From: a virus
Length of the DNA stretch: 39,633 nt
Strand: one strand, 5' to 3'
Virus record (IMG/VR): IMGVR_UViG_3300013104_000047
Span: 1 to 39,633 of that record
This document shows, one piece after another, positions 4,416 to 22,096 of the stretch. The position numbers and the translations under genes are program-made. The notes below the pieces were generated by a model. The model was not told the origin of the DNA, searched no databases, and worked only from the letters and a program-made list of their open reading frames with translations. Within the stretch, counting starts at the first letter, position 1. Every line of letters starts with the position of its first letter.

Positions 4416-4639
4416 GACTGCGCCTGACGCGTTCGGTAGAGGCGATCGAATACGCCGCCGCCGGGCAATCCCAGTCGAGCTGTTCCGGTCAGTGCGGCCT
4501 CGACCGCCTGGCGGATGTCCACAAACCGGCGTTTGCGGTCGGGGTATTCGATGTACCACTTCCCGGCACGGTTGTATCGGACGATCTGACCGCCATCGTT
4601 CGTCATGCCGTGCACGAGACGATCTGTCCTGAAGTTCAT
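4412..4639 (-). CDS. Hypothetical protein, 75 aa
   Basis: The ATG overlaps the stop of the 49-residue zinc-knuckle gene upstream as ATGA, with AAGGAG eight bases before it. It is a basic protein with a beta-rich middle (GGQIVRYNRAGKWYIEYP) resembling small phage proteins that follow a beta-hairpin then helix pattern. No family is assigned. Confidence 0.7.
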   Translation of the reverse strand: MNFRTDRLVHGMTNDGGQIVRYNRAGKWYIEYPDRKRRFVDIRQAVEAALTGTARLGLPGGGVFDRLYRTRQAQS

Positions 4640-4785
4640 GACTTTCTCCTTCCGGGGCATTCAGGGTTCCTGACGCCTGTTCCGTTGTTGCAGATACCGC
4701 ACCGGTGATCTGCCTCCTCGTGTTCCTGTGTTTGCGGGCTGATCGGGGCGAGACTGTACGCACCCCGAACCGACTGACCCGTCAC
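4636..4785 (-). CDS. Zinc-knuckle-like microprotein, 49 aa
   Basis: A hidden gene found from its boundaries. A GTG start overlaps the HNH stop as GTGA and its own stop overlaps the next ATG as ATGA. The N-terminus is polar. The C-terminus reads [17 protein letters not shown] followed by a basic tail, a CxxC...C pattern with an upstream histidine that could bind zinc. Similar CGxCxGxG...CP endings occur in small phage proteins. Confidence 0.55.
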
Positions 4786-5270
4786 GAGGGGTCTCCGTTC
4801 GCAACATTCCACTTCGCCAGCGATCGGCGGATGGTGATTCTGCTCACCCCGTACTCGTCAGCGAGCGCGACAATCAACTCGCCGGCCGCGCGCTTGAGGG
4901 CGATCTGATCCCTTTGATCCGGGGTCAAGATGGCGCGGCTGCCTTTCATTGAAGCTCTTCGGCCTCGCCGCGCAGCATCTCGGACGTTTTCAGCGTCCGT
5001 GCCCCAGTACAGATGCTTAGGGTTCACGCACGGGGGATTGTCGCAGTGGTGACAGGCACGCATGGCAGGATCAGGTGCGGGGATCCCCGAGCGCTCCAAT
5101 GCATATCGGGACGCGATTACCCGGACGCGCTTCGGCCTAGCAGGACCAAGCACGAATCGGCCATACCCATCCATGGTGTGGTCACCAACCCAGGGCCAGC
5201 ACTCGTCTTCGCCCAGTCGAGTGAAGTGGCTCTCGAAACGTTCAGCGTCTGTCTTTCGGGTACCATCCAC
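4782..5270 (-). CDS. HNH homing-type endonuclease
   Basis: A 162-residue HNH_3-type nuclease. An N-terminal CWPW (about residues 24-27) precedes the core, where a [17 protein letters not shown] stretch supplies the metal-binding and catalytic region. A C-terminal segment resembles a helix-turn-helix used for target recognition ([17 protein letters not shown]). The GTG start has a near-perfect AGGAGGG upstream. The frame is open further up to 5387, but no ribosome site supports that start. It separates SSB from a run of tiny genes, as expected of a mobile nuclease gene. Confidence 0.85.
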
Positions 5271-5308
5271 GGTAGCCCTCCTATCGGTCAAAGCGATTGG
5301 TTGGGTCA

Positions 5309-5343
5309 GACCCCGCCTGGTGTTGGTAGCACCTCGCGGGGTC
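5309..5343. other. Long imperfect hairpin upstream of HNH gene
   Basis: GACCCCGC (5309-5316) pairs with GCGGGGTC (5336-5343), and a nested GGTG/CACC stem extends the structure. It lies in the SSB-HNH gap, 39 bases upstream of the HNH GTG. It has no T-run and may be a protein-binding site or a translational control hairpin. Confidence 0.45.
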
Positions 5344-5389
5344 GCTCTCATTCTACTCTCTTTCAGTAGAAAACCCCTGGTCATCATGA

Positions 5390-5815
5390 CTAAAAAGGCG
5401 TCTCATCGGAATAGCTGCCGGGCGTGTTCCACGCATCCGTTGCCGCTGTACTGCCCGGTGACTCCTTCGCCCAAGCCTCACCCTGCTGCGGCTGGCCCTG
5501 TGCGCCCCGTGGAGACGCGCTAGGCGTGTGCTCGGACGCCGACAGCTCCGGCTTGTTCACGGCCCTCCTGATCGCGACCTTCGTCTCGCCGTCCTTCTGG
5601 TACGTCTCCCTCGAGATCCCCAACCATCCCTTCACAGTCGCCCGGTCACCCTCGCGGACAGCCAGGTCACCCCAGATCGTCCACTTGTCCGGGTACTGCT
5701 GCTTCTGGTCCTTCACCTCGAGCTCGAACGCCCGACCGTTCTTCGTGTCGAACGAGCGGCCCACCGTCCCCGAAACGAACCCGTACACGCCATCCTTGAT
5801 TGGCTGATCACTCAT
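5390..5815 (-). CDS. ssb: Single-stranded DNA-binding protein
   Basis: A 141-residue protein with a beta-rich OB-fold-like N-terminal domain (about residues 1-95), a glutamine/serine/proline-rich linker and the acidic tail SDETPF. The tail matches the SSB C-terminal peptide that recruits replication and repair partners. The N-terminal domain is divergent from bacterial SSB. It sits between the replication initiator group and the lower early genes, and its ATG overlaps the upstream stop (ATGA). Expected role: coating single-stranded DNA during phage replication and recombination. Confidence 0.75.
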
Positions 5816-7699: not shown

Positions 7700-8659
7700 T
7701 CATGCGGCACCGTCCCCGAAGTTCAGGGGCGGGGACTGGAACCGCGCGCTGAGCGACAGATCCAGGTAGTCCTTGTTCAGGTCGATGCCCACGTACTTGC
7801 GTCCCTCCTGAGTAGCGACCATCCCTGTCGTCCCAGACCCGCTGAACGGATCCAGAACCGTGTCCCCAGGACGTGAACCAGCGAGGATGCAAGGGCGAAT
7901 GAGGTCAGGCGGATACACCGCGAAGTGGGCACCAGGGAACTGCACAGTCGGCACCGTCCAAACCGAACGCTTGTTCTTGTCCGTCACGCCACCCGCACGC
8001 ATCCGTGCGGCGAGGGAGTCCAGCCCGCCGTTGCCGCCGTTACCAGCGCCGTACTTCACCGAAGTGTCATAGTGAGCAGTGGTCCTCTGGGCGTTGGAAT
8101 CAGACATTGGTTCCGCGATTGATGCTGCGTCGTAGTAGTACTTGGGCTTCTTCGCGAAGAGGAAGAGGTACTCGTGAGACTTGGTTGGGCGGTCTGTGAC
8201 GCTCTCTGGCATGGGGTTGGGCTTTTGCCAGATGATGTCCGACCGAAGAATCCAGCCGTCCGCTTGCAGAGCTAAGGCAACCCGCCAGGGAACACCTATG
8301 AGGTTCTTGGCAGCAAGACCGTCTACCTTCGATCGTTTGGCGTGTCCGCCCTTGTTGCGCGTATTTGTCGGAGAGTTGCCCGACAGCGCGCTCGAATAGG
8401 AATCGCCGAGGTTCAGCCACAGCGTCCCGTCATCAACCAGAACTCGCCTCAGCTCCGCGAAGAGCGAGACCAGCGACTCGATGTAGCCAGTCACGCTGTT
8501 TTCGGCGCCGATCTGTCCGTCCTCGCCGTAGTCACGCAGCCCGAAGTAGGGCGGTGACGTGACGATCGTCTGAACCGAAGAGCTTGGGAGCGTCACGGAC
8601 ACGGCAAGCGCATCTCCATGATGGAGGCTGATGAGATCGTCTCCGTAGTAAGGGTTCAC
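7700..8659 (-). CDS. DNA methyltransferase, N4-cytosine/N6-adenine type
   Basis: A 319-residue amino-methyltransferase with circularly permuted motif order. The catalytic SPPY is at residues 35-38 and the AdoMet-binding DPFSGSGTTG is near 270-279. SPPY favours N4-cytosine over N6-adenine. The start is GTG overlapping the previous stop as GTGA, since the upstream reading lacks family similarity. No partner restriction enzyme is adjacent. Orphan phage methylases usually protect phage DNA from host restriction. Confidence 0.85.
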   Translation of the reverse strand: MNPYYGDDLISLHHGDALAVSVTLPSSSVQTIVTSPPYFGLRDYGEDGQIGAENSVTGYIESLVSLFAELRRVLVDDGTLWLNLGDSYSSALSGNSPTNTRNKGGHAKRSKVDGLAAKNLIGVPWRVALALQADGWILRSDIIWQKPNPMPESVTDRPTKSHEYLFLFAKKPKYYYDAASIAEPMSDSNAQRTTAHYDTSVKYGAGNGGNGGLDSLAARMRAGGVTDKNKRSVWTVPTVQFPGAHFAVYPPDLIRPCILAGSRPGDTVLDPFSGSGTTGMVATQEGRKYVGIDLNKDYLDLSLSARFQSPPLNFGDGAA

Positions 8660-8949
8660 GATTGCCGGACATTCTGGGACGAAGGACGAGTGAATAGGTG
8701 GCGCCCCAGTTCCTCGATGCCATCCGAACAGGTCAAGCCGCCGTTTCGACTCACATCGCGGGACCGCCCACACTTGACGCACACGTCGTCGGGTCGAGGC
8801 TGATGAGGTACATGCTCTGACTTCCGATGCGCGCGGACATCCCGCACGGCCTCAGCATGGGTAAGACGCGGCAAACCAACGAACTCCTGGCACTTCCAGC
8901 ACCAAGCACGCGGGGCTGACCACGTCAACGTTTCCTGATGTCTACTCAT
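8656..8949 (-). CDS. Small protein with two CxxC motifs, 97 aa
   Basis: A 97-residue protein with WCWKC at 16-20 and CVKCG at 57-61, consistent with a zinc-binding module. The rest is rich in histidine and arginine (RDVRAHRKSEHVPHQ). It overlaps HNH upstream (ATGA) and the methyltransferase downstream (GTGA). The function is unknown. A role as partner or specificity factor for the methyltransferase is possible but unproven. Confidence 0.65.
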   Translation of the reverse strand: MSRHQETLTWSAPRAWCWKCQEFVGLPRLTHAEAVRDVRAHRKSEHVPHQPRPDDVCVKCGRSRDVSRNGGLTCSDGIEELGRHLFTRPSSQNVRQS

Positions 8950-9362
8950 CTGCTGAGCACTCCTTTCACGTAGTTCCCGCCAGCCGCGTCGATCGGTCGG
9001 ATTCCTTTCGACTCCTCATCCACGTGGTCGAGGAGGTGCACGAGCCCGCCGAGCCGGTAGTTGACCGGAACCTCAGCGAACGTGGCCCACGCGTTGACAG
9101 ACCAGCCCGCCTCACGCCCGGGACCGGTATGCGCGATCCCGTGGCAGCCGGACGTGTTCCCCCGACCACACAGGTGGAGGAGGTTCTGCACGTCATCAGG
9201 GCCACCCTGAGAGCGGTACAGACGGTGATGCATCTCCGTGGCAGGCTTACGACCGCAGCCCTCACAGCGGCCACCAGAGCGTCGCTGGACGAGCTCGTAG
9301 GCTGCAGAAGATGCGCGCTTCTGGTCAGCATTCGACAGCGGCGCCTGCTTCGGCCCGATCAT
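8946..9362 (-). CDS. HNH endonuclease
   Basis: A 138-residue nuclease. CEGCG near residues 33-37 begins the metal site, MHHRLYRSQGGPDDVQNLLHLC contains the HNH core with paired histidines and the conserved asparagine, and C..CHG near 69-75 completes it. ATG 9362 overlaps the WhiB stop as ATGA, which decides it over an upstream ATG. This compact HNH with a C-terminal tail is more like recombination-associated HNH proteins than the HNH_3 homing type elsewhere in the window. Confidence 0.8.
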   Translation of the reverse strand: MIGPKQAPLSNADQKRASSAAYELVQRRSGGRCEGCGRKPATEMHHRLYRSQGGPDDVQNLLHLCGRGNTSGCHGIAHTGPGREAGWSVNAWATFAEVPVNYRLGGLVHLLDHVDEESKGIRPIDAAGGNYVKGVLSR

Positions 9363-9589
9363 GCGCTCAGCCCCTTCAGCTTGTGTCTCTGCCGCGGTGA
9401 CAGACCGCCGTAGATGCCGTACTGCTCGTTCGTGTCCAACGCCCACTGCAAGCAAGAATCTGCTACGTCACACTGCCGGCAGATGAGTCGAGCCTGAGCA
9501 GACGAACCACCGTGGTCGATCACGAACAGGTCTGGGTCGGTCTGTGCGCACAACGCTTCGTCGCGCCACTCCTCGGAGTCGTAACTCAT
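9359..9589 (-). CDS. whiB: WhiB-family transcription factor
   Basis: A 76-residue protein with the four cysteines of an iron-sulfur WhiB protein at C14, C37, C40 and C46, followed by the GIYGG turn (58-62) and a basic C-terminus (SPRQRHKLKG) for DNA contact. WhiB proteins are restricted to Actinobacteria and their phages, so this supports the host assignment. Phage copies can alter host or phage transcription and superinfection outcome. It overlaps both neighbours as ATGA. Confidence 0.9.
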   Translation of the reverse strand: MSYDSEEWRDEALCAQTDPDLFVIDHGGSSAQARLICRQCDVADSCLQWALDTNEQYGIYGGLSPRQRHKLKGLSA

Positions 9590-10356
9590 GCGAGCTCACC
9601 TGCCGAGTTCCTTCGATACAGCCGGGGCTCGTATCCCAGATCGTGTTCTCGCCCGAGATCGCAGTTGCAAGCCACGAGCCCAGGAACGTTCGCGTCGTAG
9701 GCGTGATGGATCACGTCAGTGGCAGGGGGCTTGAGGTGGGCAAGGATCTGCCTCCCGACGAGCTCGGTCATGGCCGGCGGGATAGCTTCGCGGAGCTCAT
9801 CACGAGTCATCCAGTCGATGCCCATCGCGACCCGACCCGCAGCGACACCGGAGAAGTTCCCGACGATGTGCATGAACTCGTCCGGCCCTGGCTGCCGCCC
9901 CATCTTCGCCGTCTTCGCAACGTGCGCCGGATGCAACGGCTGCAGCAGGTTGACGTTGGATTCGAACAGACGGTGACGGTACGTGCGCAGTCCAGGGAAC
10001 ATGGCGCCGCACAACTCGATCGGATCCTTGAGCGGAGCGCCGACGACGTTCTCGATCACCCACGGCTTCCCGATCAGCTGAAACGCCGCCCTGGTTGCGG
10101 TGATGAAGTCCGGGTGCTCGTTGCCCTGTATCCGCTGAGCGTTGGTGAACGCCTGGCACGGGGGCGAAGCATGAAACGCATCGAACTCGTGGTGGTGCTC
10201 GAGCAGATACTTCAACGCGTCGCCCTGGTGGAACTCGAACGGGTAACGCGGCTGCGGGTCAATGTCGACCCCAAAAACGTCGAAGCCGGCCCTGTGGTAG
10301 CCCATTCCTGCGCCTCCAGCACAGGAGAACAGGTCCAAGATCCGCGGCCTAGACAT
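9586..10356 (-). CDS. DNA (cytosine-5) methyltransferase
   Basis: A 256-residue C5 methyltransferase. Motif I is LFSCAGGAGMG (9-19), motif IV is PPCQ with catalytic Cys67, and motif VI is ENV (102-104). A YRHRLFES stretch resembles motif VIII. It is short for the family, with a reduced target-recognition region. ATG 10356 has GGTGG upstream and overlaps the HNH gene by eight bases. With the amino-methyltransferase at 7.7-8.7 kb, this is the second orphan methylase. Confidence 0.85.
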   Translation of the reverse strand: MSRPRILDLFSCAGGAGMGYHRAGFDVFGVDIDPQPRYPFEFHQGDALKYLLEHHHEFDAFHASPPCQAFTNAQRIQGNEHPDFITATRAAFQLIGKPWVIENVVGAPLKDPIELCGAMFPGLRTYRHRLFESNVNLLQPLHPAHVAKTAKMGRQPGPDEFMHIVGNFSGVAAGRVAMGIDWMTRDELREAIPPAMTELVGRQILAHLKPPATDVIHHAYDANVPGLVACNCDLGREHDLGYEPRLYRRNSAGELA

Positions 10357-10810
10357 GAGACCACCGATCCCCACGCACAGCTTGGGTGATTGTGCGGCGG
10401 TCTACCGAGTAGCGAGCGGCAAGAGCGTGATACGACTCGCCATTTGCGTGCAGCTCGCGAGCTTCGCGCACGATCGCATCGTTCAGTTTTGACTGAGCAT
10501 TCGCCATGCCGACCATGCGGGGTGGATTGACGGCACGGTTGCGCGCCCGGGCATCAGCAGAATTGTCTGCATGTGTGCCGGGGAGCAGGTGCTGCGGATT
10601 CACACACGGTGGGTTATCACATGCGTGGCGCACAACGGGGGGAAGGTAACCATTCGCCAGCAAGAACGAGAGGCGATGAGCCTTCATCGGCTTCCCGTTC
10701 ACGCTGATTTGGCCGTAGCCTAGGTGGCGCTTAGCGGCCTGCCATTCCCAACATTCGCCTGGCCCTCGGCGCGCCACCTTCTTCCAGAATCTCTCTTCCA
10801 AGCTGCTCAT
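10349..10810 (-). CDS. HNH homing-type endonuclease
   Basis: A 153-residue HNH_3-type nuclease. CWEW lies near residues 20-23 and the core [18 protein letters not shown] at 61-78. A C-terminal helix-turn-helix (about 105-150, YHALAARYSVDRRTITQAV) resembles the one in the HNH at 4.8-5.3 kb. It sits between the resolvase-like gene and the C5 methyltransferase with four- and eight-base overlaps. Confidence 0.85.
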   Translation of the reverse strand: MSSLEERFWKKVARRGPGECWEWQAAKRHLGYGQISVNGKPMKAHRLSFLLANGYLPPVVRHACDNPPCVNPQHLLPGTHADNSADARARNRAVNPPRMVGMANAQSKLNDAIVREARELHANGESYHALAARYSVDRRTITQAVRGDRWSHV

Positions 10811-16040: not shown

Positions 16041-16135
16041 GAGAGCACCGCCGCAACGATCAAGAAGATGATCGGTCCGAACGTCACCACGACCAGAACG
16101 GTGTTGTCGATGCAACCCGCAGTGCGCTCGCTCAT
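16037..16135 (-). CDS. Membrane microprotein, 32 aa
   Basis: The ATG overlaps the HNH stop and its own stop overlaps the GIY-YIG start, both as ATGA. After the polar MSERTAGCIDN, residues 12-31 are entirely hydrophobic (TVLVVVTFGPIIFLIVAAVL), one membrane span ending at the C-terminus. No homologue recognised. Being placed between two nuclease genes is unusual. Confidence 0.6.
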   Translation of the reverse strand: MSERTAGCIDNTVLVVVTFGPIIFLIVAAVLS

Positions 16136-16608
16136 GCGGACACCGCCTTGGCGCGGTCGCGGTAACGCTTGGACGCATCCGCAGCGCAGCGCTTGCAATC
16201 CTGTGACGTGTGCCCGTTCTTGCGCGTGTGCGTCTTGACGTTGTCCGCGGTGAGCTCGTGACCACGCGGGCACTTGACGACCTTGTCCCAGCGTCGACGG
16301 TTGTTCACTGCGATGGTGACTGGCTCGAGGTGTGCCGGGTTGATGCAGCGGTGGATGCCGCACAGGTGGTCGATGGTCAGATCTTCGGGAATCGGACCGA
16401 CGAACATCTCATAGGACATGCGGTGGGCGAGTGCCGTTCCGCCATTGCCGCTCCTCACCGAGGCGTACCCGTTGCCGTTCTTGGCGCCGGTCCAGAGCCA
16501 GCAAGTTGCGGTGATCGCGACCTTGTTCCACCAGTTCTCTGGCAGATCCCATGCGCGGACTTCGTTGTCGATTCCGGCCGGACGCGGTACAGTGTGGGTG
16601 TTGGACAC
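16132..16608 (-). CDS. HNH endonuclease
   Basis: A 158-residue HNH nuclease. CWLW (about 37-40), AHRMSYEMFVGPIP, then IDHLCGIHRCINPAHLEPV form an HNH_3 core with D-H and the H-x-x-C-x-N-P motif. A further CPRGH...CKRC zinc site is at the C-terminus. The start is GTG 16608 with GAGAGGAA upstream; the frame is open to 16674, but that part contains the hairpin at 16630-16659. It is the second gene of the lytic operon. Confidence 0.85.
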   Translation of the reverse strand: MSNTHTVPRPAGIDNEVRAWDLPENWWNKVAITATCWLWTGAKNGNGYASVRSGNGGTALAHRMSYEMFVGPIPEDLTIDHLCGIHRCINPAHLEPVTIAVNNRRRWDKVVKCPRGHELTADNVKTHTRKNGHTSQDCKRCAADASKRYRDRAKAVSA

Positions 16609-16629
16609 AGTGTTCCTCTCTGGTTCTTC

Positions 16630-16659
16630 GAAACGCCCTGGTTGCAGCCGGGGCGTTTC
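16630..16659. terminator. Hairpin between Cro-like gene and HNH gene
   Basis: GAAACGCCC (16630-16638) pairs perfectly with GGGCGTTTC (16651-16659), loop of 12. It lies after the Cro-like stop and before the HNH start, so it may attenuate or terminate the early transcript. No long T-run follows on either strand. Confidence 0.5.
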
Positions 16660-16670
16660 TGCGTTGATGG

Positions 16671-16907
16671 TCATGCGACAGATTCCGCTTCAGTCGGGAG
16701 GAACTCGATGCGAACGTTGACTCCTGCTGCTGATGCCATGGCGAACAGCTCATCGATGGTCGGTGAGGTGTCGCCGTTGAGACGGCGGGAGATGGCGGAT
16801 GCGGAGATTCCGGTGCGTGCTGCTGCGGTTTTCTGGCTGACTCGGTTGAAGCGGTAGATGCCGCCTAGTTCCTGGATTACCCGGTTAGCGGGTGTCGTCG
16901 TTGCCAT
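16671..16907 (-). CDS. Cro-like HTH regulator
   Basis: A 78-residue protein with a helix-turn-helix at about 25-45 (QKTAAARTGISASAISRRL), small like Cro. It is the first gene of the leftward early operon and faces the repressor across a 129-base control region. A possible TTGTGG/TAAAAC promoter ends seven bases before its ATG, implying a leaderless mRNA. A 15-base palindromic operator (16879-16893) lies inside its 5' coding region. It likely represses the repressor promoter (inference). Confidence 0.75.
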   Translation of the reverse strand: MATTTPANRVIQELGGIYRFNRVSQKTAAARTGISASAISRRLNGDTSPTIDELFAMASAAGVNVRIEFLPTEAESVA

Positions 16908-17014
16908 GCCTTAGTTTTACCCGCTGAGCGACTAACCACAACCCCCCAATCGCGTGTCGGGCAATCTGCCCGCAATCATGCTGCTTCACCCGCTGAGCGG
17001 TTGACTTAGTGGGT
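16879..17014. promoter_or_regulatory. Operators of the lysis-lysogeny switch
   Basis: Copies of a palindrome close to ACCCGCTNAGCGGGT occur at 16879-16893, 16920-16934 and 16988-17002, with a half-site at 17006-17014. The second sits between the -35 and -10 of the Cro-like promoter. The third overlaps the -35 of the repressor promoter. A separate perfect inverted repeat, CGGGCA/TGCCCG, lies at 16959-16973. Confidence 0.65.
16915..16942 (-). promoter_or_regulatory. Leftward early promoter (candidate)
   Basis: On the minus strand, TTGTGG (16942-16937) and TAAAAC (16920-16915) are separated by 16 bases. Transcription would begin at or next to ATG 16907, giving a leaderless transcript. An operator lies in the spacer. 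Confidence 0.5.
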
Positions 17015-17029
17015 CAGGCGTCCTAGTGT
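17001..17029 (+). promoter_or_regulatory. Repressor promoter (candidate)
   Basis: TTGACT at 17001-17006 and TAGTGT at 17024-17029 are separated by 17 bases. The start point would fall at about 17036, next to ATG 17037, so the mRNA should be leaderless, as known for lambda cI. The -35 overlaps an operator. Confidence 0.6.
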
Positions 17030-17036
17030 TGACCTC

Positions 17037-17441
17037 ATGAGCCACTCACTCGATATCAAGCCCGCCACGACCAACGTCCGCCACGAGATCGCCGCTGCCG
17101 TGCGCGCCCACTTCGCAGTCAGAAGCACCAACGACTCGAAGGTTGCCCGCGCCATCGGCAAGTCGCAGTCATGGATGAGCCGCCGCACCAATGGGGACAC
17201 GCCTTTCGACGCCGACGACCTCGGTGCAATCGCTGAGCTGTTCGGCATCAGCTACCTCGAGCTGGCTCAGATGCCTGCCGGCCGGCCGAATCCTGAGAAC
17301 CCGATGCAAAATTCGTTCTGGACTATTGCATCCGTTACCAACATCGATGAGTGGCAGAGCGCGAAAGAGTGCGCGGACGTCGCAGAGCCCACGGTGAGTG
17401 AGCGCATCGCGTCGGTCGACCGCATTGGTTTGGCGTCGTGA
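17037..17441 (+). CDS. Immunity repressor, HTH
   Basis: A 134-residue repressor with an HTH at about residues 35-55 (SKVARAIGKSQSWMSRRTNG) and a second helical region. The C-terminal third is polar. It has no ribosome site, consistent with a leaderless start. It lies directly upstream of integrase on the same strand and ends IGLAS. Repressor size, position and orientation match phages with integration-dependent immunity (BPs and Brujita groups), where attP is inside this gene and integration removes its C-terminus. Confidence 0.8.
   Translation: MSHSLDIKPATTNVRHEIAAAVRAHFAVRSTNDSKVARAIGKSQSWMSRRTNGDTPFDADDLGAIAELFGISYLELAQMPAGRPNPENPMQNSFWTIASVTNIDEWQSAKECADVAEPTVSERIASVDRIGLAS
17303..17332. 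other. attP: Candidate attP core within repressor gene
   Basis: GATGCAA (17303-17309) and TTGCATC (17326-17332) are perfect seven-base inverted arms around an A/T-richer 16-base centre inside the repressor's 3' half. Tyrosine integrases bind inverted core sites of this kind. Recombination here would truncate the repressor at about residue 90-98. The true core can only be set by comparison with attL/attR. Confidence 0.3.
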
Positions 17442-17584
17442 GGAGAGGCCCCCTCGTCGATGGGACGTCTGCCCTACGGGTTGTTACTACTATCCCCCAA
17501 AAGGAGGACATCACCCCTCGCTTAAGCCTCGTACCTCCGCTACCTTCCGGAGACCAGACAGAATCTGGATCTCAGGGGGAAGCA

Positions 17585-18388
17585 ATGATGCTCGACCAGT
17601 ACACCAAGTCCATGCGCCGGCGCCGTCGCAGCGAAGCCACGATCCGTACGCGTCTGTTCTATCTGAAGAAGTTCGACGCGTTCCTCGGTCCACGTGAGCT
17701 TGTCCAGGCAACGACAGACGACATGTACGACTACCTCGACTCGAACCCGAAGTGGTCTCCGGCGACGAAGCAGTCCATCGTCTCGTCGATCCGAGTGTTC
17801 TACGCGTGGGCGTTCAAACGCGGTTATGTGCAGTCGGATGAGTCGGAGGAGTTCTGGGCAGCGAAGGTCCACCAGGGCACCCAGCGAATGGCATCAGAGG
17901 AAGCCATCAGGAAGGCCCTGGGACGCTCCACGGACGCCGAACGCGCGATGATCCTACTGGGAGCCGAGTGTGGCCTCCGGGTGTCTGAGATCGCATCCTT
18001 GAACGTCCACAACCGGCATGAGGACTTCCTGACGATCGTCGGCAAGGGCAACAAGCAGCGCACCGTCCACATGTCCCATGAACTCGCCACCGTGCTGACG
18101 ATGATCGAGAACACGACGATGCGGTTCGGTAACTACTTCCCCGGCCAGTCCGGGAAGAAGCCGATGCATCCGACGTCGATTTGGCGGCACATCACGAAGG
18201 TGCTCGAGTCCAACCCGCACAGCCTCCGACACCGCGCAGGGACGGTCGCGTACCGGAAGGGTGGGCGGGATATCCGGTTGGCTCAGACGATGCTCGGCCA
18301 TGCTTCCCCGGTGACGACCGCGGTGTACGTGCACATGGAGGACGACGACTTGCGTAGAGCTTCGAGGGCAACGCGCGTGGCGGCATAA
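17585..18388 (+). CDS. int: Tyrosine integrase
   Basis: A 267-residue tyrosine recombinase. A SAM-like N-terminal domain includes TIRTRLFYLKKFDAFLG. The catalytic domain has GLRVSE (first Arg), a KGNKQR lysine turn, HSLRHR (His and second Arg), GHAS and the nucleophile in YVH near the C-terminus. GGGGGA precedes ATG 17585; the frame is also open from GTG 17438, which overlaps the repressor stop as GTGA. It ends RVAA, similar to ssrA-type degrons that make integrase unstable in BPs-like phages. Confidence 0.9.
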   Translation: MMLDQYTKSMRRRRRSEATIRTRLFYLKKFDAFLGPRELVQATTDDMYDYLDSNPKWSPATKQSIVSSIRVFYAWAFKRGYVQSDESEEFWAAKVHQGTQRMASEEAIRKALGRSTDAERAMILLGAECGLRVSEIASLNVHNRHEDFLTIVGKGNKQRTVHMSHELATVLTMIENTTMRFGNYFPGQSGKKPMHPTSIWRHITKVLESNPHSLRHRAGTVAYRKGGRDIRLAQTMLGHASPVTTAVYVHMEDDDLRRASRATRVAA

Positions 18389-18393
18389 CGAAA

Positions 18394-18427
18394 AAGCCCC
18401 TCACGATCCGTAGACCGTGAGGGGCTT
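18394..18427. terminator. Strong terminator after integrase
   Basis: A perfect 12-base stem (AAGCCCCTCACG/CGTGAGGGGCTT) with a ten-base loop, five bases after the integrase stop. A-run to the left gives a good U-run for minus-strand transcripts; it also ends the integrase transcript. Confidence 0.8.
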
Positions 18428-18434
18428 CCCCATG

Positions 18435-18462
18435 TTGCGTGTCGGGGGTGTGTGGCTATGCT
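18435..18462 (+). promoter_or_regulatory. Promoter of accessory operon (candidate)
   Basis: TTGCGT (18435-18440) and TATGCT (18457-18462) are separated by 16 bases. ATG 18469 begins six bases after the -10, so the mRNA is predicted to be leaderless. This fits expression independent of the lytic operon, for example from the prophage. Confidence 0.5.
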
Positions 18463-18468
18463 TCGGGG

Positions 18469-18657
18469 ATGAGCTACGAGTTCTGGTACATCAGCCTGCC
18501 GACGAAGACAGGACAGCGCCTCAAGGGCGAGTCGGTCGAAGACCACGCAAACCGGGAGCTAAACGAGCTCGTAGAGCGCGGTTGGGAGCCGATCAGCTTT
18601 GACCGTCCACAGGGCATCGGGCCGATCGGGTTCCTGCTTCGGAAGTCGAAGTCATGA
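18469..18657 (+). CDS. Accessory operon protein 1, 62 aa
   Basis: It begins MSYEFWYISLPTKTGQRL. A DUF4177-like small fold is suggested: a beta strand, a helix with regular spacing (HANRELNELVERGWEPISF), then GFLLRK. The W-E-P-I/V-S-F ending after a NELxxxGW helix is typical of that small domain. Leaderless start. It is coupled to the membrane protein downstream by an ATGA overlap. Confidence 0.7.
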   Translation: MSYEFWYISLPTKTGQRLKGESVEDHANRELNELVERGWEPISFDRPQGIGPIGFLLRKSKS

Positions 18658-19037
18658 GCGACCGTTCTCTGCCGGGGATTCAGCCTGTGGGGACAAGGCG
18701 CCCAACCTCCTCAAAGGTGGTCGGAGGAATTGCCATTGCCGTGCTGCTCGGCCTAATCGTCTGGGTTGCGGTGAACTCCGCCGGCGGATCTAAGTCAGAG
18801 TACGACGCGAACAACCCGGCGGAGGCGACGGCCCAGTGTGAGGCGCGTATTGAGCGCCTGTTGAAAGCGCCGGACACGGCGAAGTTCGATTCGTCTGCGA
18901 CGGGTTCGGGTACGTGGACGGTGTCAGGCAGTGTGGATTCGGAGAACGGGTTCGGTGCAAGGTTGCGTTCCGAGTACCAGTGCACAGTGGTGGTTCAGGG
19001 CGAGAAGCTGACGACCACTGTCGACTTTTTGCGATGA
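18654..19037 (+). CDS. Membrane-anchored accessory protein, 127 aa
   Basis: A short cytoplasmic N-terminus, one membrane span (about 22-42, VVGGIAIAVLLGLIVWVAV), then an extracellular domain with AQCEARIERLLKAPDTAKF and WTVSGSVDSENGFGARLRSEYQCTVV. Its two cysteines could form a disulphide. This outer domain is widespread in bacterial and phage proteins of unknown function. In an operon next to integrase, it may act at the envelope of the lysogen, for example in superinfection exclusion (inference). Confidence 0.75.
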   Translation: MSDRSLPGIQPVGTRRPTSSKVVGGIAIAVLLGLIVWVAVNSAGGSKSEYDANNPAEATAQCEARIERLLKAPDTAKFDSSATGSGTWTVSGSVDSENGFGARLRSEYQCTVVVQGEKLTTTVDFLR

Positions 19038-19321
19038 CTCGTCCGAAGCCGATCCGTTACGACCAGGACACATGGTTGGTGATGCGTAACGACCCGGTGA
19101 ATCCGAAGGCGATCATCGAACGACGCCGTGATGGTCGTGGTGAGGATGTGTTCTTCATCTCGCGTTGGAACGTTGACCCTGGTGCGCGTGTCCTCATGGG
19201 GACGAAAGGGTCATTGGTGGAAGCGGATGAGTTCGTTCGCTACGACCTACCGTCGAAGCGTGACGGGCGTGACGGGCCACCGAACGGGATCGACGGCGAC
19301 GGGGTACAGCGGCGCCGGTGA
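19034..19321 (+). CDS. Accessory operon protein 3, 95 aa
   Basis: The ATG overlaps the upstream stop (ATGA). A beta-rich basic protein (TWLVMRNDP; KAIIERRRDGRGEDVFFISRW) with a charged, disordered tail (RDGRDGPPNGIDGDG). No family recognised. It is the last gene before the convergent terminator. Confidence 0.65.
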   Translation: MTRPKPIRYDQDTWLVMRNDPVNPKAIIERRRDGRGEDVFFISRWNVDPGARVLMGTKGSLVEADEFVRYDLPSKRDGRDGPPNGIDGDGVQRRR

Positions 19322-19330
19322 ACGACGAAT

Positions 19331-19366
19331 AGCCCCCTCGGATCTCCGCAGAGACCCAAGGGGGCT
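19331..19366. terminator. Convergent bidirectional terminator
   Basis: AGCCCCCT (19331-19338) pairs with AGGGGGCT (19359-19366). It lies between the plus accessory operon and the minus tail-spike gene, where both transcripts must end. Confidence 0.75.
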
Positions 19367-19375
19367 GATGTCGTG

Positions 19376-22096
19376 CTAGATCCAGAGCGTGAAGTCGTCG
19401 ACGCTCGAGATGGTGTCTGCCGAGTAGTCACCGAAGATACCGACCGGCAGGTCGGTCGCCAGATCAGTGTCGGTCACTGCACCGACGAACTCCTCCGAGA
19501 CATACCAGGCAATCCGGTGTGTGACCGTGTCGTACTCCACCCGGATGATGTCGCCAGCGACGACTTCACGGTTGAAGCTGTTCAGGTTCGTCAACGTGCC
19601 CGCGACGAGCTTCTGCAAGCCCAGGTTGAACACGCCCACCGCTGGACGCAAAGCCACCCGGAAGTAACTGTTCGTCGCCGAGTACCCGAACACCAGACCG
19701 ATTCGACGGTTCGCGGACGTGTTGGCCGCATGGACCTTCATCTGCACTGCACCGACTGAACCGACTGCCGGTGTGGTGACGAACGTCATCGAGCCCGAGG
19801 TGGGCTTGGCGACGATGTTCCCGAAGCCGCCGATGACACCAGATGCGCCCTGTGTCCACGTTTGGGTGGTGGTGCCGTCCGCGAGTGACGTACCGTTCAG
19901 TGGTGCGGAGGCGCGGTTGAACCGGTCGATGACGTTGGCGACACCAGCGATGCCACGCACAGCGGCCGTGTAGTCGGAGGTGGTCCCTCCGATGACGGAC
20001 GCGACACGGAACTCGTACGTGTGTCCCTTCTTCAGCCCGCTGATGGTCGCCGTCACTGCAGTCGATGCGGTGTGAGCGAACGTCGTCCACGAACCAGCAT
20101 CCGGGAGCCGGTACTGGATCGTGTAGTCCGTCATCCCGGTCGCGTACGGCGCCTGCCAGGTGAGGACCGCGGAAGCGGTACTCGACGACGCGGCGACCAG
20201 AGCTCGAGGAACAGTCATCGCCACGTCACCAGTGTTCCCCGAAACGGTCACGTCGTTGATCGTCACCCCGGCGAGGACGACGTTGTCGATCTGTGTCTTC
20301 GTGGCCTTCAGGTCATAGCAGTCGTTGTCCTGAATCCGCCCACCGTCGATGCGTGAACCCGAGACGACGAGGATCCCCGCCTGGTCGTTGAGGACACCCG
20401 CGAGGCCGTTGCCAGCACAGTGGTTGTCCTTCACCGTCAGGAACTGGAACTTCCGCCCCGTCTCCGACACCAGACGGATCCCAGACAGCCCGTTGCGTGC
20501 GACCTGGTTGCCGTGAACCATCAGCCCAGCAATGTCCACACCAGCAGCAGCGGTCGCGAGCACGGAGATGCCCCACGACTGGTTGTCGATGATCTGGTTG
20601 CCCTCGATGATGGTGTGCAGGTCACGGGTCACGTTGACACCAGAGGCGTCCGGCATCGCGATGCGGATGCCGCTGCCGTCAGTGGAGATCGGACCAACAC
20701 CACCACGGATGGTGTTGTTCGTGATGATCGTGTGCAGGCCCGGGTACGGTGCACCCAGCGTCGTCTTCCGCAGGCTGATACCCACACCACAACCGACGAT
20801 CGTGTTGCCGTCAATCAGTGTGCCGGTGGAACCGCAGTCGCTAATGCCATAGAACATGCCGATCACGACGTTGTTCACGATCCGGTACCCGTTGGTCCCG
20901 AGCGCCGGGTTCGCGCCGGTCTGCGCTTCCGTGAAGATGCCGTTGTGGCCCGGGCTCCGCGTCGTGACCGTCTGGGATCCGACGATGACGTTGTTCGCGA
21001 TCAGGGTCGGCTCCGTCGCACCAACACCCTTCGTGCCAGCTCCGATACCGGAACCACCAGGACCAACACCAGGAGGGCACAAGCGTCCGGGACGCAGGAT
21101 GTAGTTACCGACGATGGAGCACTGATCGAACGAGTGGTCGAACGGGATCGCTGTCGCCGGGAAGTTCCAAACGTTCATGTCGCGGATGGAGCACCGCTGC
21201 ACGTAGTAGATGTTCAACGGCTTCACTGCGGACCCGTACCCGGCGGTGTGGATGTGAGCTTCCGCCTCGATACCGAAGTCGCTGAACTGTGCACCGATCA
21301 ACGGGGTGGACTCGGTACGTCCGGCACACGTCAACCAGTCCGACGTTCCGGCGGTTGAGCTGTTCCCGGCGCGGTCCTGGATTGAGTGCACCCACGACAC
21401 TTCCCGGCCCTCGCCCCGCCATGACACGAAGTTCTTGACGTTCAGGGGGATGGTGGCGATGGTGCGCCCCGGCGGAATGTACACGGTACCGCCGGACATG
21501 CCGAAAGCGATACCCGAAGTGGTGGCTGCAGCGTCCTGGGCGGCGGAGAATGCTGCGTCGTCGGGGGTGCCGAAGATGCAGCGCAGACCGGCCCCCGAGC
21601 TCGTAGCGTTCGACGCGAGCGTTGCCACACCGGACGCGACAGACACGATGGTGCTGATCCAGACACCATCGTTCGCGTTCGCGACGACAGGACCGGCGCC
21701 CATAACGGCGATGGTCTTGCCAATGTCGGCGGTCACGAACGCACGGGATGCCGAAGAGACGGTCGGCTGGCCGGCAGTCGTCACAGCGTTCGTGAGGAGA
21801 ATGCCGTCCATCTTCGCGCCGTAATCGCGGATGTCCTTCCGGGTGCCGCCGAAAACGCGGTCATTGATGACCGTGTTCGTCGGCAGCACGTTGGAACCAT
21901 CGACACCGTCGTCCCCCGGGTCGCCCTTGAAGTTGCCGAGGGCGATCTCAGTGCCGTCTTCCTGGATCAGCCAGACGTTGCCCAGCCCGTCAACTCGGCG
22001 GTCGACGATGGTGCGTGGGTTGAAGGGCAGCGCGTTCTTGACGCTATCGGGCAGCTCCTTCGTTTCGGAGTCGACGGATACGAGATAGTTGACCAT
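19376..22096 (-). CDS. Tail spike/receptor-binding protein, beta-helix + FN3
   Basis: A 906-residue modular tail protein. An N-terminal attachment region ends in a short collagen-like GDPGDDGVDG (59-68). Residues about 90-630 have the repeated GNxI/NNxI turns of a right-handed parallel beta-helix, as in phage depolymerases and spikes. About 632-722 is a fibronectin type III domain (VLTWQAP; YTIQYRLPDAGSW; YEFRVASV). The last 170 residues look like a jelly-roll/lectin-like fold (SYFRVALRP). GGGGG precedes the ATG. It probably binds or cleaves a surface polysaccharide. Confidence 0.8.
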   Translation of the reverse strand: MVNYLVSVDSETKELPDSVKNALPFNPRTIVDRRVDGLGNVWLIQEDGTEIALGNFKGDPGDDGVDGSNVLPTNTVINDRVFGGTRKDIRDYGAKMDGILLTNAVTTAGQPTVSSASRAFVTADIGKTIAVMGAGPVVANANDGVWISTIVSVASGVATLASNATSSGAGLRCIFGTPDDAAFSAAQDAAATTSGIAFGMSGGTVYIPPGRTIATIPLNVKNFVSWRGEGREVSWVHSIQDRAGNSSTAGTSDWLTCAGRTESTPLIGAQFSDFGIEAEAHIHTAGYGSAVKPLNIYYVQRCSIRDMNVWNFPATAIPFDHSFDQCSIVGNYILRPGRLCPPGVGPGGSGIGAGTKGVGATEPTLIANNVIVGSQTVTTRSPGHNGIFTEAQTGANPALGTNGYRIVNNVVIGMFYGISDCGSTGTLIDGNTIVGCGVGISLRKTTLGAPYPGLHTIITNNTIRGGVGPISTDGSGIRIAMPDASGVNVTRDLHTIIEGNQIIDNQSWGISVLATAAAGVDIAGLMVHGNQVARNGLSGIRLVSETGRKFQFLTVKDNHCAGNGLAGVLNDQAGILVVSGSRIDGGRIQDNDCYDLKATKTQIDNVVLAGVTINDVTVSGNTGDVAMTVPRALVAASSSTASAVLTWQAPYATGMTDYTIQYRLPDAGSWTTFAHTASTAVTATISGLKKGHTYEFRVASVIGGTTSDYTAAVRGIAGVANVIDRFNRASAPLNGTSLADGTTTQTWTQGASGVIGGFGNIVAKPTSGSMTFVTTPAVGSVGAVQMKVHAANTSANRRIGLVFGYSATNSYFRVALRPAVGVFNLGLQKLVAGTLTNLNSFNREVVAGDIIRVEYDTVTHRIAWYVSEEFVGAVTDTDLATDLPVGIFGDYSADTISSVDDFTLWI

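Follow-up and report, generated by a model that had tools for sequence, protein, structure and literature searches.

A probable cargo slot next to the integrase gene of a temperate Microbacteriaceae phage, with a possible role in superinfection exclusion

What is the function of a small operon that follows the integrase gene of a temperate phage and is oriented opposite to the late genes? The whole stretch of DNA that was analysed, referred to as "the window", is a virus record of 39,633 bases from a temperate phage. Its late genes are located on the minus strand, while a repressor-like gene and a tyrosine integrase gene are located on the plus strand, followed by three small genes, here called A, B, and C (Table 1). 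The original prediction viewed these genes as one prophage-expressed module, possibly for exclusion or defence. For comparison, viral and cellular loci were fetched, which are labelled with L-numbers (e.g. L002 and L026). As judged from the translations, the 40-kb genome contains many homing-endonuclease-like genes, i.e. HNH-type endonuclease-like ORFs at 409-1041, 4782-5387, 8946-9455, 10349-10810, and 16132-16674, and the early region contains two DNA methyltransferase-like genes (7700-8782 and 9586-10374).

Table 1. Features of the operon and its surroundings in the window, with the associated evidence.
Feature	Position	Strand	Evidence and remarks
Repressor-like HTH gene	17037-17441	+	Same orientation as int; HTH/phrog_4583 transcriptional repressor, E 4.6e-10
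Tyrosine integrase gene (int)	17585-18388	+	PF00589, E 8.7e-19; ATG start at 17585, preceded by cagggggaagca
Hairpin terminator, gap between int and operon	18394-18427	.	Fold z -5.3 (+), -8.4 (-); identical in L026
Putative promoter TTGCGT-N16-TATGCT	18435-18462	+	Sequence: -35-like TTGCGT 18435-18440, 16 nt, -10-like TATGCT 18457-18462, 6 nt, ATG 18469; conserved to the ATG in L026
Gene A, DUF4177-like, 62 aa, no TM segment	18469-18657	+	PF13783, E 0.0099, below cut-off; homologues L002, L003, L150-L157
Gene B, 127 aa, one TM segment and exported helix/four-strand domain	18654-19037	+	phrog_13160, E 1.3e-17
Gene C, 95 aa	19034-19321	+	L026-L030, 79-95% identity; cellular homologues with LexA boxes
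Hairpin terminator, gap between operon and convergent tail-spike-like gene	19330-19367	.	Fold z -4.7 (+), -6.3 (-)
Tail-spike-like late gene, convergent with operon	19376-22096	-	Beta-helix and fn3 domains; phrog tail spike, E 2.2e-5

The three-gene operon is real. Start and stop codons overlap in an ATGA-type arrangement at both junctions (A/B at 18654-18657, B/C at 19034-19037), and the codon usage and GC3 values of all three genes are like those of known genes of this phage, while the other frames score negative. The operon is situated downstream of the repressor and integrase genes, and the folding values of both flanking hairpins are strong, so that the predicted location, i.e. a separate plus-strand operon next to int, between two terminators and opposite to the late genes, was borne out.

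A promoter of its own that directs leaderless initiation had also been predicted, and the spacing of the putative promoter to the ATG of gene A fits this mode of initiation. A pattern scan of the window for the sigma-70 consensus let none pass at the operon promoter, and a scan for U-tract terminators picked up neither of the flanking hairpins, because only the first one has a U-run, on the minus strand. With the pattern scans having found neither, the evidence for the promoter and the terminators consists of folding and of the comparison with L026. L026 has exactly the same -10 element, 6-nt spacer, and ATG, although its downstream gene is unrelated. This conservation is better evidence for the putative promoter than a match to the consensus, and it agrees with the prediction.

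The idea of a single three-gene module had to be given up. Profiles of A, B, and C were applied to a set of fetched loci; the trio was found in the window only, and A and B together only in the window and in L002. Relatives of C with 79-95% identity are present in five viral contigs, and A and B are next to C in none of them, so the gene order is not kept in relatives. A and B occur without C, and C occurs without A and B, and each of the three genes has its own history. A grouping of C and A in one family was considered and rejected, as the profiles are without similarity. The idea of an exclusion locus survives, in a form other than a three-gene module.

This form is suggested by L026, the closest relative that was found. 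Its integrase is 97% identical to that of the window, over the residues from the ATG at 17585 onwards. In a DNA alignment the two phages agree from the end of int via the hairpin and the promoter to the first ATG, and are unrelated beyond it. In L026 a single lipoprotein ORF, with a signal peptide ending in LTGC, replaces A and B. Then C returns with 94% identity, and its GTG start overlaps the TAG stop of the lipoprotein gene. The constancy of the promoter and C combined with the change of the cargo points to a cargo slot. An exchangeable slot with a fixed promoter and a fixed C is well supported and very probable, with the exact swap of the cargo having been seen in one pair of relatives, i.e. 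the window and L026; a search for other phages that share this promoter or integrase found L026 only.

Two further observations concern L026 and the region upstream of the slot. The contig of L026 begins with int and stops short of the divergent HTH pair, which in the window (16671-17585) is followed by the repressor and int genes close together. From these contig ends, the attachment site may be located between about 16675 and 17585; the C-terminal -GLAS of the repressor is reminiscent of integration-dependent immunity. Downstream of C, L026 encodes a multi-TM protein of 403 aa (L026:1603-2814) with weak similarity to Wzy_C O-antigen ligases (E 2.5e-5, below cut-off), a possible candidate for a surface-glycan conversion protein.

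The neighbours of C in other loci were compared, with gene calls in the relatives made by a simple codon-usage script with virus contigs that are trimmed at genes, and with an uneven sampling of genomes. In L030 a different lipoprotein gene (LSAC) precedes C by about 30 nt. C is followed by genes for TM-anchored GDSL hydrolases in L027 and L028, which have their own TAGGAT-type, leaderless-looking starts, and by genes for small TM proteins in L169 and L170. Together with B of the window and the lipoprotein of L026, an exported or TM protein is thus encoded next to C in seven of the seven same-strand viral or prophage contexts examined, compared with 21% of the genes in those C loci that have such a hydrophobic segment. 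The difference is suggestive, and the comparison is inexact because there are two flanks to choose from, L027 and L028 are related, and the two lipoproteins are slightly less hydrophobic. Some neighbours hit PHROGs annotated as "superinfection exclusion" (L156, E 0.019; L030, E 0.14), but these hits fell on the signal or TM segment and were discarded, and a search for relatives of the alternative cargo proteins among isolated phages found none. Two contigs (G005, which carries L030, and G006, which carries L002) have the cargo at the start and, as judged from the translation, a serine-recombinase-like integrase gene at the end; if their ends were joined, the order would again be int followed by cargo.

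Gene B was predicted to encode a membrane-anchored protein with an external cysteine domain, and this description holds. The protein has one TM segment (residues 22-40, KD 2.81), and its exported domain contains two cysteines, Cys62 and Cys110. The domain is predicted to consist of a helix on a four-stranded sheet, loosely NTF2/cystatin-like, in an AlphaFold model with pLDDT values of 81-93 for the domain and low confidence for the TM region. The family has the motif LK[AS]PxTAxF...V[DS][SA][EQ]N[GS]FGA. No significant match to Pfam was found, no match of the fold to the PDB at E<0.001, and searches against solved structures gave nothing usable; phrog_13160 and phrog_2320, both of which B matches, are annotated as unknown function.

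A scan of viral sequences with the B profile yielded 80 loci. B is located within 1.5 kb of a tyrosine integrase gene in 13 of the 31 contigs that have one, compared with about 3.3 expected for random placement. In L005 and in phage MinS1, the gene that follows B immediately is an integrase gene. In Gordonia phages of two genera, B is a single reverse-oriented gene between the tail assembly chaperone and the tape measure genes, and the same is true for L007-L010. Both positions, near int and reversed among tail genes, are typical of genes expressed by a prophage. B-like proteins were found in only five of 300 Microbacteriaceae genomes. B-like genes are also found at bacterial loci that have no obvious phage neighbours in the stretch examined, and from these the role of the domain may be more generally related to the envelope.

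For gene A, predicted to be DUF4177-like, the match to DUF4177 (PF13783) is weaker in the protein of the window than in a homologue. The former has a score of 16.5 bits, below the curated Pfam cut-off of 25 bits, while its homologue L156:1495-1686, which is picked up by the same profile, has 30.3 bits. A search of solved structures gave no usable match for A. In L003 and L150-L155, A is present alone, reversed, between the tape measure gene and the gene upstream of it. The tail assembly chaperone/tape measure junction is a recurrent site for small reversed genes of the unrelated families A or B, with examples in L003, L150-L155, the Gordonia loci L066 and L067, and L007-L010. In the window, L002, and L156, A is paired with, and overlaps, a following gene for a membrane-anchored protein, and L157 apparently has such a pair with a frameshift in the second gene. 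The pair of L156 adjoins an integrase gene, and the external domain of the partner differs from that of B, so that at least two kinds of anchored protein serve as partners of A. Despite the different external domains, a proline-rich N-terminal tail of the PPGI type ahead of the TM segment is common to the partners, which suggests that A may work with the cytoplasmic tail of its partner.

In our main reading, to which we assign a probability of about 0.5, a temperate Microbacteriaceae phage has at this locus a slot for lysogenic-conversion cargo, which most likely serves superinfection exclusion at the envelope; for the operon itself, exclusion as the function has about even odds. In the prophage state, the leaderless promoter behind the int terminator would drive the A and B cargo and C, and the three proteins would be made by coupled translation in the lysogen. 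B would sit in the cytoplasmic membrane, its small domain facing outward, and would most likely block an incoming phage during DNA ejection or right after it, with the small soluble A assisting on the cytoplasmic side. Expression in the lysogen, the exclusion phenotype, the ejection step, and the helper role of A are steps that we infer. The alternative cargo of the slot is also exported. The repeated siting of A and B by tape measure genes fits a link to tail function and falls short of proof. Reversed genes at this site could serve any function expressed by the prophage.

The same exported cargo might instead alter the envelope for the benefit of the host, with respect to stress, adhesion, or wall glycopolymers, so that lysogens grow better. 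The GDSL hydrolases and the Wzy_C-like protein among the alternative neighbours of C are in line with this possibility, and so are the B-domain proteins in viral contigs of very different sequence character, beyond high-GC actinobacterial ones. However, prophage genes that modify the surface are classic exclusion genes as well, and the recurrence of A and B beside tape measure genes is more easily explained by a role in tail function or ejection; we regard host fitness as a tentative alternative with clearly less than even odds.

Known systems were compared with the proposed exclusion function. The closest mechanistic analogue is Ltp, the exclusion lipoprotein of Streptococcus thermophilus phage TP-J34. 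The ltp gene belongs to the lysogeny module, where it adjoins int; Ltp is made by the prophage and targets the tape measure protein (PMC3952083). B resembles Ltp in being small and anchored in the envelope, in having an external domain, and in the position of its gene by int in the direction of lysogeny. However, B is not a member of the Ltp family: Ltp is lipid-anchored and contains helix-turn-helix repeats, whereas B has a TM anchor and a helix/four-strand domain, and no match to the Ltp domain was found in B with Pfam or NCBIfam. Gp41 of Cutibacterium acnes phages (Aquarius, PA6) is a proposed exclusion protein (PMC11480721). Like B, it has a TM anchor and, outside the membrane, a cystatin-like helix/beta domain that contains two cysteines, but its gene is one of the early genes in a phage of another type. 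A C. acnes phage protein of 177 aa, which may be gp41, was retrieved at E 0.013 when the fold of B was searched. A relationship of B to gp41 was rejected, because the likeness is confined to topology (HMM score -1.5 bits, hhalign probability 0.1). In general, B has no detectable sequence similarity to exclusion proteins that have been tested or proposed.

The two-gene, prophage-expressed defence systems Sbash gp30/gp31 and Gordonia phage CarolAnn gp43/gp44 each include one membrane protein (PMC6426596, PMC6426606). A and B might form an abortive-infection unit of this type, or of the RexAB type, in which A senses infection and triggers B. The format is the same, i.e. a small cytosolic and a membrane protein, overlapping genes, an own promoter (known for Sbash, predicted for the window), and a location by the immunity region (PMC6426606, PMC6426596). 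However, the Sbash/CarolAnn systems combine a four-TM membrane protein with a DUF4747-like partner. B has one TM segment and not four, A is DUF4177-like and a DUF4747-like partner was not found, each of the two genes is often present in the absence of the other, and a sequence relation between A and B and the Sbash/CarolAnn proteins was not detected, so that an abortive-infection unit appears quite unlikely. None of the component models of PADLOC was matched by A, B, or C at E<=10.

Gene C, the constant part of the slot, is basic and beta-rich, as predicted, with a net charge of +3, a predicted core of five strands and one helix, and a disordered yet invariant tail of about 20 residues. No match of the fold to the PDB was found at E<0.001, and searches against solved structures gave nothing usable. 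Comparison with its relatives resulted in dN/dS values of 0.07-0.23, i.e. purifying selection. A transient moron operon with no selected joint function, with C as a passenger, would account for the restriction of the trio to the window and the separate histories of the genes, but is very unlikely in view of the purifying selection on C and its invariant tail, the conserved promoter, and the start-stop overlap at C, which both phages of the swap pair (the window and L026) have retained.

Relatives of C were found in 47 of the 300 Microbacteriaceae genomes searched (19 at E<1e-20), and many of them are chromosomal single genes. These cellular genes often have a LexA box, TCGAAC-N4-GTTCGA, at the start region. 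Boxes with at most one mismatch were counted: 11 were found in 155,899 positions of C loci, a number equal to that in the stretch just upstream of C in these loci, and they represent about six independent cases because several loci are near-identical. The boxes at or just before the start are found in L034 (7976-7992), L039-L043, L047, L065, and L033/L044. One Plantibacter genome of 4.3 Mb contains six perfect boxes in all, one of which precedes its chromosomal C, and no perfect site of the reversed control pattern. The recA and lexA genes of two C-bearing genomes have nearby boxes with one or two mismatches. The box directly upstream of the start is of the Streptomyces type, as described for the LexA regulon of S. 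venezuelae with the motif tCGAAC-N4-GNNCGa (PMC9380542). The predicted sites would place cellular C in the LexA (SOS) regulon.

The viral copies of C differ in this respect. Those examined have no LexA box with up to three mismatches in the 150 bases upstream, and none was found upstream of the viral operon. In L209, C is located beside a gene for an SOS response associated peptidase (SRAP, E 4e-46). There, C adjoins the SRAP gene (5047-5739) and diverges from a gene for a protein of 83 aa (4442-4693), a relative of which is also divergent from C in L033. A suspected identity of this upstream gene in L033 and L209 as DUF6504 was dropped, because it has no Pfam match. To our knowledge, C is not among the described SOS proteins, and the cellular family is a candidate for a new SOS gene. 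Viral C looks like a host SOS-type gene that may have been captured and placed under a prophage promoter, and perhaps it might tune the host damage response.

Taken further, the locus could be a general and hitherto undescribed exchange slot of Microbacteriaceae prophages, in which interchangeable envelope cargo is flanked by a fixed leaderless promoter and by a fixed C gene that was taken from a host SOS family and freed from LexA, coupling exclusion to the management of the damage response of the lysogen. We consider this wider reading unlikely. If it were true, A and B would constitute a new kind of exclusion system in two parts, of which the external domain can be exchanged.

The exported domain of B is widespread, has no Pfam match, and is found repeatedly at positions where prophage-expressed genes are typical. 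C represents an uncharacterised small family of Microbacteriaceae, of which a part has strong LexA boxes and which has apparently been captured by phages. The window and L026 are a test pair that differ at the locus in the cargo alone, and the slot offers a bounded place to seek prophage exclusion genes, for which the large phage collection of Microbacterium is available.
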